Source: Pontibacter fetidus (GTDB taxonomy: Bacteria; Bacteroidota; Bacteroidia; Cytophagales; Hymenobacteraceae). From it: 64,000 nt of DNA. The notes below the pieces were generated by a model. The model did no database searches, was not told the origin of the DNA, and saw nothing but the letters and a program-made list of their open reading frames with translations. The stretch covers positions 62,001 to 126,000 of the forward strand of contig NZ_JAAEAA010000012.1 in NCBI RefSeq assembly GCF_010119545.1, written 5' to 3'. A program made the position numbers and the translations under genes. This document shows positions 4,633 through 15,693 of the stretch, piece after piece (position 1 is the first letter of the stretch; each line of letters opens with the position of its first letter).

Positions 4633-5508
4633 TTATTGCCCTTTGCCGCGCATCTGCTTTTCCATAGCGTCCCACATTTCCTGAGGTATCAAATCAAACG
4701 CATTAAATTCGCCGGCTCCATATAGCCACTCGCCGCCATCTATCGTTACCACTTCGCCATTCACAAAAGCCGCATAATCAGAAACAAGGTAGGCGGCTAA
4801 GTTTGCCAGCTCCTGGTGCTCACCGAAACGGCCAACCGGTATGCGCTTTACCGGGTCTAGTTTATCGGCAAGTTGTTTCGGGAACAGGCGTGTCCAGGCA
4901 CCTTCGGTTGGGAACGGACCCGGGGCAATAGCATTGGAGCGGATGCCGTACTTTGCCCACTCCGATGCCAGCGAGCGCGTCATGGCCAGCACGCCGGCTT
5001 TGGCACACGCCGAGGGCACCACATAGCCAGAGCCTGTCCAGGCGTAGGTCGTGACAATGTTAAGTATAGTTGCCGGTTGCTTTTGCTCTATCCAGTGCTT
5101 ACCCAGGGCCAGTGTACAGTTATAGCTTCCTTTCAATACAATGTCGGTTATTACATCAAAGGCTTTATGACTCAGGCGCTCGGTGGGGCTTACAAAGTTG
5201 CCGGCCGCGTTGTTTAACAGCACATCTACTTTACCAAACTTATCCAGGGTAGCCTGCAGCATGGCTTCAATCTCGTTATACTTGCGCACATCGCAGGCTA
5301 TAGGCAACACGTGTCCGCCGGTTTCCTGCATCAGTTCGTTGGCAGTTTTCTCCAATACATCCAGTTTGCGGCTACAGATCACTACGTTTGCGCCAAGTTC
5401 CAGAAAATATTTAACCATAGAGCGGCCAAGTCCGGTGCCGCCACCGGTTACGATCATGGTCTTGCCTTGCAGGGCACCATCTTTCAGCATTGGTTCTGCC
5501 TTCATCAT
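4633..5508 (-). CDS. SDR oxidoreductase resembling 2,4-dienoyl-CoA reductase
   Basis: A 291-residue Rossmann SDR with the dinucleotide motif TGGGTGLG and the NNAAGNF segment. Instead of the usual YxxxK it has PSACAKAGV, and downstream GRFGEHQELANLAAYL and NGEVVTIDGGE. This pattern, including a C-terminal GEFN, matches mitochondrial and peroxisomal 2,4-dienoyl-CoA reductases closely. The likely reaction is NADPH-dependent reduction of 2,4-dienoyl-CoA during beta-oxidation of polyunsaturated fatty acids. The lysine is kept while the classic tyrosine is missing, as in that family. It is monocistronic here and has no beta-oxidation neighbours. SDR is certain; the exact substrate is a family inference. 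Confidence 0.88.
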   Translation of the reverse strand: MMKAEPMLKDGALQGKTMIVTGGGTGLGRSMVKYFLELGANVVICSRKLDVLEKTANELMQETGGHVLPIACDVRKYNEIEAMLQATLDKFGKVDVLLNNAAGNFVSPTERLSHKAFDVITDIVLKGSYNCTLALGKHWIEQKQPATILNIVTTYAWTGSGYVVPSACAKAGVLAMTRSLASEWAKYGIRSNAIAPGPFPTEGAWTRLFPKQLADKLDPVKRIPVGRFGEHQELANLAAYLVSDYAAFVNGEVVTIDGGEWLYGAGEFNAFDLIPQEMWDAMEKQMRGKGQ

Positions 5509-5630: not shown

Positions 5631-6035
5631 ATGAACAAAGAAGAATTAGAAAATGAATTGAAGCCATTTTACGATGGCCTGCTCATGCTGAGTGAAACCG
5701 ACAGCCCTTTTGAGTTCTATTACTTCGAGAACACACAAAACCTGCCCCTGAATAAGGATACAGTAGCATCGTTGGCTGGCAAATCGAGTGGCTCTGAGAT
5801 AAAAACAGAAGAACTGACCTACTTTTTCAGGAACATGACGCGGGTATATCCCGAAGACGGCCCGGAACGAAAGCAACAGGCAGACCGCTTTACCCAACTG
5901 CAGCAAAAACTGGAAGCATTGCTACAGGATGTGAAAGTGTATAAAGCCGACGAGATAAGTATAACCGCTTATATTCTAGGCAAAACCCCGGATGGCGACA
6001 TTGCCGGCTTAAGAACAGTAGTGGTAGAGACCTGA
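5631..6035 (+). CDS. Nuclease A inhibitor-like protein (NuiA family)
   Basis: At 134 residues with no signal peptide it matches the size of Anabaena NuiA (135). It has the acidic SETDSPFEF segment with Glu22, and ends in VVVET with a C-terminal threonine. As I recall from the NucA-NuiA structure, Glu24 contacts the nuclease active-site arginine and the terminal Thr reaches the catalytic metal. Its convergent neighbour encodes a NucA-type exported nuclease, which makes the assignment much stronger. The likely role is to protect the cytoplasm from nuclease that has not yet been exported. The two genes share a bidirectional terminator. Confidence 0.85.
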   Translation: MNKEELENELKPFYDGLLMLSETDSPFEFYYFENTQNLPLNKDTVASLAGKSSGSEIKTEELTYFFRNMTRVYPEDGPERKQQADRFTQLQQKLEALLQDVKVYKADEISITAYILGKTPDGDIAGLRTVVVET

Positions 6036-6039
6036 AAAG

Positions 6040-6080
6040 AAAACAGCCCGGCAACTATAGGTAACCGGGCTGTTTTGCTT
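6040..6080. terminator. Bidirectional terminator between inhibitor and nuclease genes
   Basis: A perfect 12-base stem (AAAACAGCCCGG / CCGGGCTGTTTT) encloses a loop that itself contains CTATAG. It lies between the convergent inhibitor and nuclease genes. Confidence 0.85.
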
Positions 6081-6096
6081 GTAACTGGATCTGTAA

Positions 6097-6984
6097 TTAT
6101 TGTGTCGGGCCTGTATCCACACGCGCTTCTATAGTTGTCTGTACTGTAGAGGATACATTTGAAAGCAGGTTGTAGCCCATTTTTGCTTCGATCGCATCTA
6201 CAGTAGTGCGGTAAGTTCCCCAACTGCTGCTGATAGATGTGGAGTTAGGCGTATCGATGGCAATTACGCGCGTGCTGGTGGTTACGCGGGCCGCATCGCC
6301 GGTGCCGTTCGGCAACACAACTATAACCTTCCAAATGCGGTTAGGTACCGTAACTTTACCGCCTGCCAATGTTTCTTTATAACCAGCACTACCGGTACCG
6401 CCAATGCCATACTGCCCCATAATAATGTATAGTTCGTTGCCCTGGTTAATAAGGGTACGGCAGTAATTTTCGAGGTTGGCCCAGGTTTGCTGGTTGTTGG
6501 TAGGAGCCTGCGGAATCATGTTGCTCATCAGGAACGTGGCCGAGTTATCAGTAACGGTCAGAGTTCTGTCAGCTGACGGGCAATTATGTCCGCGATCGAA
6601 GCCGCTGCCGGTGTAGTCAGCGGGAGTTACGCGGTAAAAAGCAGTAGGTAACGAGTTGTCAGCACGGAAATCGTCCTGGCGTGGTGTGCTGCCTACCCAG
6701 GCACTGCTCAAGTGCCAGCTAACCCAGTTTGGTGTACCTCTGTAGCTGTTATACGACATCGAATACTGGGCTTTGTTAATGAGGTAATTAGAATAACTGG
6801 TTCCGGCACCGCTCGGGTTACCCATTGCCATGTTATTATCTTTGGTAGCAGTAGCGTTGACTACTTTTGCAATCGTGCCCAGGTCTCTGATATTCGAATC
6901 TGGTTGCACATCGTCCTTTGAGCAGGACACAAGCATCAGGCCCGCTAAGGCGAGATACAATACGCGGTGTAAAGATTTTTTCAT
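6097..6984 (-). CDS. Secreted or lipid-anchored DNA/RNA non-specific endonuclease (NucA type)
   Basis: The N-terminus is a lipoprotein signal (LAGLMLVSC, Cys21). The beta-beta-alpha-metal nuclease core has DRGH at residues 130-133. Around it Arg102, His133, Asn164 and Glu172 reproduce exactly the spacing of the Anabaena NucA residues Arg93, His124, Asn155 and Glu163, so the general base and metal ligands are intact. It should cut single- and double-stranded DNA and RNA outside the cytoplasm, for nutrient scavenging, removal of extracellular DNA or competition. The facing gene encodes a NuiA-like inhibitor. Its 5' region is AT-rich with no other gene for 328 bases. Confidence 0.93.
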   Translation of the reverse strand: MKKSLHRVLYLALAGLMLVSCSKDDVQPDSNIRDLGTIAKVVNATATKDNNMAMGNPSGAGTSYSNYLINKAQYSMSYNSYRGTPNWVSWHLSSAWVGSTPRQDDFRADNSLPTAFYRVTPADYTGSGFDRGHNCPSADRTLTVTDNSATFLMSNMIPQAPTNNQQTWANLENYCRTLINQGNELYIIMGQYGIGGTGSAGYKETLAGGKVTVPNRIWKVIVVLPNGTGDAARVTTSTRVIAIDTPNSTSISSSWGTYRTTVDAIEAKMGYNLLSNVSSTVQTTIEARVDTGPTQ

Positions 6985-7312: not shown

Positions 7313-8770
7313 TTAGAAATGGTCCCGGAGAAGTTTTTGAGTAGTTATAATGCCGCTTAAGCATACACCTACAATTCCCTGGCCGGGGTAAACGGTATCG
7401 CCGCAAACATAAGCACCTTTATGGTCGAGGCGGGCATCTTTCATTTGCCAGGGTTTCAGGCTTTTATACTGCGGATATCCGCCAACGGCCCCAAATGCTC
7501 TTTTAGTCCAGAAAGTCCAGGCGCCCGGCGTGGCAGACTGATAACTGATGATATCCTGTGGCAGCACAAGCCCTTCCTCCGCCAGTCTGTTTAGTATAGC
7601 CTTTTCTATAAGGTGTTTATTATCGACATAAGTATTTCCGGGGTTTGGTAGATGTGTACTGAGGCTGGCTACCTCCTCACCTTCCGGCGAACGCTCGTTA
7701 TCCGAAGCGTGACTGAAACTGATAAAAATGCTTTTGCTACCCGTAACCGGCAACCCGCCAGGTATATGTACCTGATGATGGAGCACTTCTCTGTTTTCAT
7801 GCTTTTTTAAGACCAGACTCATAGTAAAAGCCCCGTTCAGTTTCTCCGATGGCAGGATGTATCGCTGCAGGCGGCTACGCACCTTTTCATCGTTATAAAG
7901 CGCCATGGTGTTGTTTAAAGGTATGCCGCTAATGATAAAGCGCGAACTATAGTTAGTTTTAGTAGTTGTAACCCTGTAGCCGCTGGTAGTAGGTATAATA
8001 CCTGTTACTTCCTGGCCATAGTGTATGGTTGCACCTTTGGCTTTGCAAAAATCAACCACCGGCTGCACCAAGTTTATCAATCCGCCATCTATATAATAGT
8101 TGCTGTAAAGGGTGTAGCATAAAGCCGTGGCTCCGAATAGCACATTTACTTCTCCCATATAATTCTGGGCCGTTATCAGCAACTGTTCATTCACAAAATC
8201 CACAAACAGCTTATTGTGCTGCAGGTTATAGTGCCTTAACAGGTCTTCTATCGTTTGAAATGCGGCAGGTAATAATGCTGCCTGCCCCGGCCGGAATGCC
8301 CTGGCCGCCTGCCAAAGATCGCTGACAGTAGAGAAGGGGAAACTGCGCTGCCGCAACGATACCTGCCAGACCTTCTTGCTTACCTTATAACAATGCTCCC
8401 AGAATGCACGCTGGTTATAGTTGCCAAATACACGCTCCGCTTCGCTTATCCACTGGTTCAGGTCCTGGTAGCGGGTAACTATAGATCCATTTGGCAAATG
8501 TACCTGCAAGGGTACTTCCAGTTTACGGAGGCCAGGAATTCGGATACCGGTTTCATCAAGCAAATAACGTAGCGGCATATATTCGTCTAAGCCAACCAGT
8601 GTAGTAGCACCTGTTTCGAACCAATAGCCTTTGCGTTTGTACGAGGTAGCACAGCCGCCCGGGTATTTAGCCTGCTCCAGTATACAAACGTTTAACCCAT
8701 GCTTGCATAGCAAGGCAGCAGCGGTAAGCGAGCCAAAGCCCGAGCCAATAACTATAACATCATACAGCAT
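7313..8770 (-). CDS. FAD-dependent oxidoreductase of the phytoene desaturase / carotenoid isomerase (CrtI/CrtISO) family
   Basis: A 485-residue flavoprotein with the N-terminal dinucleotide motif VIGSGFGSLTAAALL, then EQAKYPGGCATS, and a C-terminal FAD segment GAYVCGDTVYPGQGIVGV. This two-part architecture is that of CrtI-like carotenoid desaturases, prolycopene isomerases and all-trans-retinol saturases. No carotenoid genes (crtB, crtY, crtZ) lie in the window, so a pigment role is plausible but unproven. It is divergent from the epimerase-like gene at 8873, with a 100-base shared upstream region. Confidence 0.8.
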   Translation of the reverse strand: MLYDVIVIGSGFGSLTAAALLCKHGLNVCILEQAKYPGGCATSYKRKGYWFETGATTLVGLDEYMPLRYLLDETGIRIPGLRKLEVPLQVHLPNGSIVTRYQDLNQWISEAERVFGNYNQRAFWEHCYKVSKKVWQVSLRQRSFPFSTVSDLWQAARAFRPGQAALLPAAFQTIEDLLRHYNLQHNKLFVDFVNEQLLITAQNYMGEVNVLFGATALCYTLYSNYYIDGGLINLVQPVVDFCKAKGATIHYGQEVTGIIPTTSGYRVTTTKTNYSSRFIISGIPLNNTMALYNDEKVRSRLQRYILPSEKLNGAFTMSLVLKKHENREVLHHQVHIPGGLPVTGSKSIFISFSHASDNERSPEGEEVASLSTHLPNPGNTYVDNKHLIEKAILNRLAEEGLVLPQDIISYQSATPGAWTFWTKRAFGAVGGYPQYKSLKPWQMKDARLDHKGAYVCGDTVYPGQGIVGVCLSGIITTQKLLRDHF

Positions 8771-13833: not shown

Positions 13834-15693
13834 TTAAAATCTTTTTCTGCGGAAGCCACGGCTTTCACCTCCACGGTCTCTGTCGCGGTCGCCACCGAAA
13901 CGGCTACCTCCACGATCTCCGCCTCTGTCACGGTCGCCACCGCCAAAGCGGCTGCCACCTCTGTCGCCACCACGGTCGCGGTCTCCGCCACCACGTGGGC
14001 CACCAAATCGGCTACCACCACGGTCGCCACGATCACGGTCTCTGTCGCCACCACCAAAACGGCCTCTGCCACCACGGTCTTCGCGGTCACCGCCTTCTTT
14101 GCCAGCGCCTTTTTTGTCAGATTTCTCAACAACTACCATGCGGCCATCCACCTCTATACGACCTACTTTCTCTAGTATATTAGCCGTGTATTCGGTTGGT
14201 ACTTCCACAAAACTGAACTTGTCGTACAGGTCGATGTCGCCTACTTTAGATGCCGGGATATCAGCATTTGCTGAAAGTAAATCGATGAGGTCTTTCGGAT
14301 GAACGCGGTCTTTTTTACCGATCGTGATGAACAGTCTGTCAAAACCTTCTTTAGAGAAACCAAGGCCCTTTTCAGCTTCTTTACCAGCCTCTTTCACCTT
14401 AGCTTCTTTCAGGCTCATTTTTAATAAAGCCGCAGCTACCTCAAGCGAAGTATAATCTTCGTTAACCAGTTTCTCTATCGTTGTGATGTGCTTGGTCAGG
14501 TTGCCCTTTTCCAGTACTTCACGCACTTTATCCAGGAACATGCTGGTGCGCAGCTCGTTTACGTCTTCGTAAGTAGGTACCTGCTGTAGCTGAATATTGG
14601 CTTTTGTATAGCGCATGATATCCTTCAGCTTGTACATATCCGAACGACCAGATACAAAAGAAAAAGCTCTGCCTGATTTACCTGCACGGCCTGTACGGCC
14701 AATACGGTGCACATAAGCTTCTTCGTCCTGCGGCAGGTCGTAGTTAAATACGGCTTCCACGTTCTCCACATCCAGGCCACGGGCTGCAACATCAGTAGCT
14801 ACCAGTATCTCAAGTTGTGCATTACGGAACTTGCCCATCACATTAGAGCGCTGGTTCTGGTTAAGGTCACCATGTAGGGCATCAGCTAAATAACCGCGGC
14901 TTTGCAGGCTTGTTACCAGTTCATCCACCATACGCTTGGTATTGCAGAAGATCACCACCGACTTCATGTTAAACATATCCAGCACACGCGAAAGCACTTC
15001 CTGCTTCATGCTGTTACGCACCTCAAAGTATACCTGGTCTATGTTAGTAACGGTAAGCTCTTTATGCACCACTTTCACTAATACCGGATCTTTCTGGTAA
15101 AGCTTGGTAAGGTCCATAATCGGCTTAGACATAGTAGCTGAGAACAGGATGGTCTGACGCTCTTCCGGCATTTTGCTAAGCACAAACTCGATGTCGTCAC
15201 GGAAACCCATGTCCAGCATCTCGTCCGCTTCGTCCAGGATAATTTTCTTGATCTTGTCCAGCTTAAGCGTACCGCGCTCAATGTGGTCCATTACACGGCC
15301 TGGCGTACCTATAACGATCTGAACACCTTGCTTAAGGGCGCGCAACTGGCGGTCGTAAGACTGGCCACCATAGATTGGCACGATGCTGATGTTTGGCTTA
15401 TACTTGATAAGTTTCTGAATCTCGCCGGCAACCTGTATGGCCAGTTCGCGGGTTGGGCAAAGTATAAGTGCCTGTACGCTTTTATCGCGTTCGTCTATAC
15501 TTTCTATAGTTGGTATACCAAAGGCAGCGGTTTTACCGGTACCAGTCTGTGCCTGGCCAATAATGTCGCGACCTTCTAAAACTACCGGAATTGCTTCTGT
15601 CTGGATTGGGGAGGCCTCTTCGAAGCCCATGTCTGCGATCGCTCGCTGAACTTCCGGGGAAAGTGGAAGCTCATCAAATCTGATTTTGTTCAT
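13834..15693 (-). CDS. deaD: DEAD-box RNA helicase, DeaD/CsdA type, with Arg/Gly/Asp-rich tail
   Basis: 619 residues. The helicase core (residues 1-370) has AQTGTGKT, PTRELA, TPGR, DEAD, SAT, VAARGLD and HRIGRTGR. It is followed by a dimerisation-like helical part and a DbpA-type RNA-binding domain (about 470-545), as in cold-shock DeaD/CsdA. The last 80 residues are repeats of GGDRDRGGDRGGSRFGG type, a low-complexity tail that usually adds non-specific RNA binding. Likely roles are 50S assembly and mRNA remodelling in the cold. The best -7 box is about 150 bases upstream of the start, suggesting a long 5' leader as found for cold-shock helicases. ORFs on the opposite strand of the tail are shadows of the repeats. 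Confidence 0.93.
   Translation of the reverse strand: MNKIRFDELPLSPEVQRAIADMGFEEASPIQTEAIPVVLEGRDIIGQAQTGTGKTAAFGIPTIESIDERDKSVQALILCPTRELAIQVAGEIQKLIKYKPNISIVPIYGGQSYDRQLRALKQGVQIVIGTPGRVMDHIERGTLKLDKIKKIILDEADEMLDMGFRDDIEFVLSKMPEERQTILFSATMSKPIMDLTKLYQKDPVLVKVVHKELTVTNIDQVYFEVRNSMKQEVLSRVLDMFNMKSVVIFCNTKRMVDELVTSLQSRGYLADALHGDLNQNQRSNVMGKFRNAQLEILVATDVAARGLDVENVEAVFNYDLPQDEEAYVHRIGRTGRAGKSGRAFSFVSGRSDMYKLKDIMRYTKANIQLQQVPTYEDVNELRTSMFLDKVREVLEKGNLTKHITTIEKLVNEDYTSLEVAAALLKMSLKEAKVKEAGKEAEKGLGFSKEGFDRLFITIGKKDRVHPKDLIDLLSANADIPASKVGDIDLYDKFSFVEVPTEYTANILEKVGRIEVDGRMVVVEKSDKKGAGKEGGDREDRGGRGRFGGGDRDRDRGDRGGSRFGGPRGGGDRDRGGDRGGSRFGGGDRDRGGDRGGSRFGGDRDRDRGGESRGFRRKRF

Follow-up and report, generated by a model that had tools for sequence, protein, structure and literature searches.

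A NucA-type lipoprotein nuclease convergent to a NuiA-family inhibitor in Pontibacter fetidus: a putative self-protection pair and its distribution outside cyanobacteria

The pair formed by the nuclease NucA and the inhibitor NuiA is known from cyanobacteria. A stretch of 64,000 nucleotides from a contig of Pontibacter fetidus, referred to here as the window, carries genes for a NucA-like and a NuiA-like protein that face each other. A preliminary description had proposed a self-protection module, perhaps used in competition or DNA feeding, and the locus therefore raised the question of whether the pair has such a role in this member of the Bacteroidota. The position (5631-6984) and convergent orientation of the two genes were confirmed. 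The gene nuiA (5631..6035, forward strand) encodes an unfused NuiA-family nuclease inhibitor of 134 amino acids in which a signal peptide was not apparent. The second gene (6097..6984, reverse strand) encodes a DNA/RNA non-specific endonuclease of the NucA type, a lipoprotein of 295 amino acids.

The nuclease matched PF01223, the only domain detected in it, with an E-value of 4.7e-53 (180.6 bits against a cut-off of 23), and Anabaena NucA (1zm8/2o3b_A) with an E-value of 3e-76. A residue check showed that Arg102 (codon at 6679..6681), the active-site motif Asp130-Arg131-Gly132-His133 (DRGH; 6586..6597) and Asn164, Glu172 and Arg176 are all kept. The segment from Asn164 to Glu172 forms the metal-site helix in the alignment with NucA (6469..6495; all three features on the reverse strand). 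Arg102 is the counterpart of NucA Arg93, which is named in PMC4220975, and Asp130 that of NucA Asp121 (the site of D121A in 2o3b), so that an offset of +9 to NucA holds. As this offset is constant, Arg102, His133, Asn164 and Glu172 are found at NucA spacing, as claimed previously. As a NucA-type nuclease, the protein is predicted to cleave both DNA and RNA.

The reverse strand at 6907..6984 encodes a lipoprotein signal peptide with the lipobox LVSC21. The residues after Cys21, S-K-D-D-V, agree with C-X-K-(D/E)2-X, which is optimal for the surface export of Bacteroidota lipoproteins (PMC5080379). Both the lipobox and the export signal agree with the earlier view of the enzyme as an exported lipoprotein, and its most likely location, judged from these signals, is the outer face of the outer membrane. 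Among 64 nuclease entries from Hymenobacteraceae, some of them fragments, a lipobox was found in 40 with a loose pattern and the strict surface-export signal in only 6, suggesting that the strict motif is a trait of the window's branch and not of the whole family. Long N-terminal extensions were present in two relatives of the nuclease (L142:2870-5125 and L035:1453-3588); one has PPC domains and the other reelin-like repeats.

The inhibitor matched PF07924 with an E-value of 4.8e-34 (117.9 bits against a cut-off of 22.1), residues 5-134 aligning with profile positions 2-130, and the PDB entries 2o3b_B and 1j57 with an E-value of 3e-16. An AlphaFold model calculated with 39 relatives as input had a pLDDT of 89 and superimposed on 2o3b_B with a TM score of 0.94 and an rmsd of 1.4. 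The protein is therefore predicted to have the same fold as Anabaena NuiA. The inhibitory segment S21-E22-T-D-S-P-F27 (5691..5711, forward strand), in which Glu22 corresponds to NuiA Glu24, and the C-terminal Thr134 (6030..6032, forward strand) had both been claimed to be kept. Both are present, and S21, E22, P26 and Thr134 were invariant in an alignment of 40 sequences. A C-terminal Thr was found in 149 of 154 unique full-length NuiA sequences. By family and by these residues, the protein would be an inhibitor of a NucA-type nuclease.

The two genes lie tail to tail with 61 bp between them. When this gap was folded, both strands gave a long GC-rich stem bordered by runs of A and T (6037..6080; MFE -23.5 and -24.6 kcal/mol, z -3.8 and -5.9). 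A simple terminator scan missed this hairpin due to the loop limit of the scan. By folding prediction, the hairpin is a strong bidirectional intrinsic terminator, and nuiA and the nuclease gene are therefore probably separate convergent units. In the domain search, the neighbours of the locus were an SDR, an FAD oxidoreductase, an acyltransferase and a helicase. The SDR gene (4633..5508, reverse strand; PF13561) and the FAD oxidoreductase gene (7313..8770, reverse strand; PF01593) are constant neighbours of nuiA across the genus. A DEAD-box helicase with a long, repetitive tail rich in Arg, Gly and Asp is encoded at 13834-15693 on the reverse strand.

The occurrence of both families was surveyed in 60 genomes of Hymenobacteraceae. 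NuiA occurred in 58 of them and the nuclease in 57, and two had neither. All genomes with NuiA except one (G043, NuiA only) also contained the nuclease (57/58). Outside cyanobacteria, where the preliminary description had placed this pair, it is thus not rare but, in this family, near-universal. Among 68 NuiA matches in Hymenobacteraceae, 33 were located within 600 bp of a nuclease gene and 56 within 8 kb. Two main layouts were found, the convergent one of the window and a tandem one with the nuclease first. In Cytophagales, the nuclease was present in 45 of 46 genomes with NuiA versus 45 of 102 without it (Fisher p 1.3e-11). The p value was 3e-9 after removal of the Hymenobacteraceae and 1.5e-5 when counted by genus, and the latter is the safer figure because the Fisher test assumes independent genomes, which these are not. 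Phylum-wide, the nuclease occurred in 7/7 genomes with NuiA and in 35/131 without (p 1.7e-4). The survey of Bacteroidota thus upheld the association of the two families. Since about half of the Cytophagales genomes that lack NuiA carry a PF01223 nuclease, possession of such an enzyme does not require the inhibitor.

Physical linkage in relatives was retained only in part: the genes were mostly linked in Hymenobacteraceae but mostly unlinked in other Bacteroidota, with one exception (L186). NuiA and nuclease genes were adjacent at the Chlorobiales loci L142 and L171, convergent and adjacent at 71 of 74 cyanobacterial loci, and in tandem at two loci of Acidobacteriota. Adjacency was thus seen in two orientations and three phyla. 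Beside two intact NuiA genes the nuclease gene was split into two frames (G027:C20:241796-242436 and G054:C4:18092-18740; L247 and L248). Of 120 plasmid records that matched the nuclease, 73 came from Piscirickettsia, a genus that was not among the plasmid matches of NuiA. The genome contigs were scanned for NuiA with an alignment of 5 sequences, as a version with 14 sequences was too divergent.

In 34 adjacent pairs, the distances between inhibitors and those between nucleases were correlated (Mantel r 0.61), and none of 5000 within-genus permutations reached this value. This result shows that the partners travel and diverge together; it is on its own no proof of contact.

The site between the SDR and FAD oxidoreductase genes gave further indications. 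The nuclease slot at this site is filled in the window and empty beside seven NuiA copies in other genomes of the genus. Three of the seven copies (G002, G018 and G028) are the sole inhibitor of a genome with a nuclease elsewhere, and all three retain the terminal Thr. The other four (G043, G008, G013 and G052) have all lost the Thr end. G043 contains no nuclease, and its NuiA now ends in Asn. G008, G013 and G052 possess a second, tandem NuiA-nuclease pair, and the slot copy of G013 also lacks the Glu. Key residues were likewise lost from NuiA of G328, the only sampled Cytophagales genome with NuiA and without a nuclease, and from a spare copy in G029. When unneeded copies were defined as those in nuclease-less genomes or made redundant by another pair, all six (L153:4924-5328, L156:5078-5539, L158:4854-5279, L161:5015-5446, L213:1213-1683 and L214:1576-1965) had an altered Glu and/or C-terminal Thr, versus 5 of 137 others in a set of 143 sequences. 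As the slot copies of the three tandem-pair genomes formed one clade in the tree, the signal corresponds to about four events, and a tree-based test of independent pairs was not significant owing to too few pairs. There were also exceptions: NuiA L192 (G310) was altered although nucleases were present, two Hymenobacter-type copies ended in Ser, one copy had Asp for Glu, and the Nostoc copy L093 was shortened. The loss of key residues where the inhibitor appears to be unneeded is consistent and suggestive, short of proof.

NuiA was also found as part of larger proteins. In two genera of the Hymenobacter type (g4 and g5), it is the C-terminal domain of a longer protein, which starts with a HIT domain of the HINT type (L009:1000-1878, L163:7943-8845 and other loci of these genera). 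The NuiA frames were long in 22/22 sampled genomes (284-366 amino acids), and the HIT part was present in every fully read locus. The fused gene follows directly after greA, and a nuclease gene is located convergent to it at a distance of 0.7-10 kb, with a typically longer N-terminal part. All other Hymenobacteraceae tested, including the genome of the window, have the greA-hit pair with an unfused HIT protein of about 130 amino acids; in the window genome this pair is on a different contig from nuiA (L209, G000:C49), and the NuiA of the window has no HIT domain. A second set of fusions (L071:7491-8393, L063:1498-2415, L172 and L173) comes from a distant group, Thermochlorobacter (Chlorobiales), where NuiA is joined to a HIT protein of the Ap4A-phosphorylase/ATP-adenylyltransferase type. 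In the model of this fusion the HIT part was of lower confidence, and the NuiA domain was well defined (TM 0.87 to 2o3b_B). At L098 and L062 a HIT gene of the Thermochlorobacter type is not fused to NuiA but overlaps its start by four bases, which is likely to represent a fusion intermediate. Because the two kinds of fusion fell into separate clades of the tree (support 98 and 100), the fusion arose independently at least twice. NuiA was always C-terminal, leaving its own end, a Thr or rarely a Ser, free, and the HIT motif HxHxH was intact in the fusion sequences read. A search of the literature for a link between HIT proteins and NuiA gave nothing relevant, although such absence is no proof of novelty. 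A functional tie between NuiA and the nucleotide hydrolases and phosphorylases of the HIT family is conceivable, but doubtful.

Taken with a probability of roughly 0.8, the locus is a NucA/NuiA pair in which a surface nuclease is accompanied by a cytosolic inhibitor that protects the cell's own cytosol. Homology, co-occurrence, linkage, co-variation and the decay of unneeded copies lend good support to the self-protection module proposed at the outset. The nuclease would be made in the cytosol and directed to export by the Sec/lipoprotein signal together with the Bacteroidota surface-export motif. Displayed outside the outer membrane, it may degrade extracellular DNA and RNA for nutrition or matrix turnover; DNA feeding by the surface nuclease is plausible. 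NuiA would remain in the cytosol and, should any nuclease molecule fold ahead of its export, plug the active site. Glu22 and the free C-terminal carboxylate of Thr134 would then approach the catalytic metal, as in Anabaena NuiA. Family, fold, residues, lipoprotein signal, co-occurrence, linkage, co-variation and the decay of the two key residues were read from sequence and model; binding, location and role were carried over from Anabaena.

Three other explanations were considered. The nuclease might be an antibacterial effector, delivered by contact or by diffusion, with NuiA as its immunity protein. A nuclease gene beside an inhibitor gene does resemble effector-immunity layouts, and some genomes hold spare NuiA copies. 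However, a delivery or trafficking domain or a secretion-system context was found neither in the nuclease nor among its immediate neighbours, which encode the enzymes named above. Moreover, the conserved points of NuiA, Glu22 and Thr134, are expected at the invariant metal site and not at variable surfaces, and the spare copies decay instead of being retained as orphan immunity genes. This explanation is very improbable, and the suggested use in competition found no support, as a delivery, toxin or secretion-system context was absent and the nuclease has the features of a lipoprotein anchored at the surface. Equally little credit can be given to a toxin-antitoxin or abortive-infection system, in which the nuclease would be freed from NuiA inside the cell and kill it upon stress or phage attack. 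Cyanobacterial pairs are often plasmid-borne, and in a cyanobacterium an artificial kill switch can be made from a potent nuclease and its cytosolic inhibitor (PMC4890671). The window nuclease nevertheless bears an export signal and a lipobox, the genes are probably separate convergent units and not an operon with the antitoxin first, and NuiA persists at sites without a nearby nuclease. Relatives of NuiA were not found in phages or viruses: a scan of viral contigs gave four pattern matches, none of which was confirmed, and phage records gave none. Both readings were rejected, as the context that would support them is absent from the window locus. That the adjacency is incidental, NuiA merely resembling a nuclease inhibitor and doing another job, would agree with the fact that several relatives have NuiA alone at this syntenic position and with its fusion to HIT enzymes elsewhere, but is highly unlikely in view of the co-occurrence (p 1e-11), the adjacency in two orientations and three phyla, the co-variation of the partners and their coupled decay.

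The pair of the window was compared with known systems. It shares with NucA-NuiA of Anabaena sp. PCC 7120 (1zm8, 1j57 and 2o3b), whose reported affinity corresponds to a pKd of 11.5 (PMC5374557), both protein families, the catalytic and inhibitory residues and the inhibitor fold, and the convergent adjacency is like that in cyanobacterial relatives of the Anabaena pair. The two NuiA proteins are about 30% identical. Unlike the Anabaena system, the nuclease of the window is a Bacteroidota lipoprotein with a surface-export signal, and the pair is located on a chromosomal contig with conserved SDR and FAD oxidoreductase neighbours. A further difference is that the window genome, with one NuiA and two NucA-type nucleases that are 58% identical to each other, has a second nuclease without an inhibitor of its own; this lipoprotein is encoded at L003:1450-2301 (G000:C33:19838-20509) without an adjoining inhibitor gene. 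NucA/NucB-Nin of Bacillus subtilis follows the same logic, with an exported His-Me-finger nuclease beside an inhibitor gene, and Nin has no sequence similarity or clear structural similarity to NuiA (PMC5758888). The HIT-NuiA fusions contain the same NuiA domain and, in Hymenobacter-type genomes, have a linked convergent nuclease; they differ from the unfused NuiA of the window by their N-terminal HIT part of the HINT or Ap4A-phosphorylase type.

The pair of the window is itself ordinary; what the surveys add is the broad distribution, the coupled-decay signal and the repeated fusion to HIT proteins. In the manner of a natural experiment, the decaying copies suggest that the inhibitor works through its Glu and its C-terminal Thr. 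The two HIT-NuiA fusions, undescribed as far as the literature was searched, suggest a possible link between nuclease inhibition and nucleotide enzymes. If the tie is true, the HIT part might serve to dimerise the inhibitor, to tune inhibition by nucleotides or to co-handle nuclease damage, and nuclease inhibition would be part of nucleotide metabolism instead of simple self-protection. The textbook NucA/NuiA pair of cyanobacteria thus appears to serve generally for self-protection in Hymenobacteraceae, and beyond this family it is scattered among other Cytophagales, Chlorobiales and Acidobacteriota.
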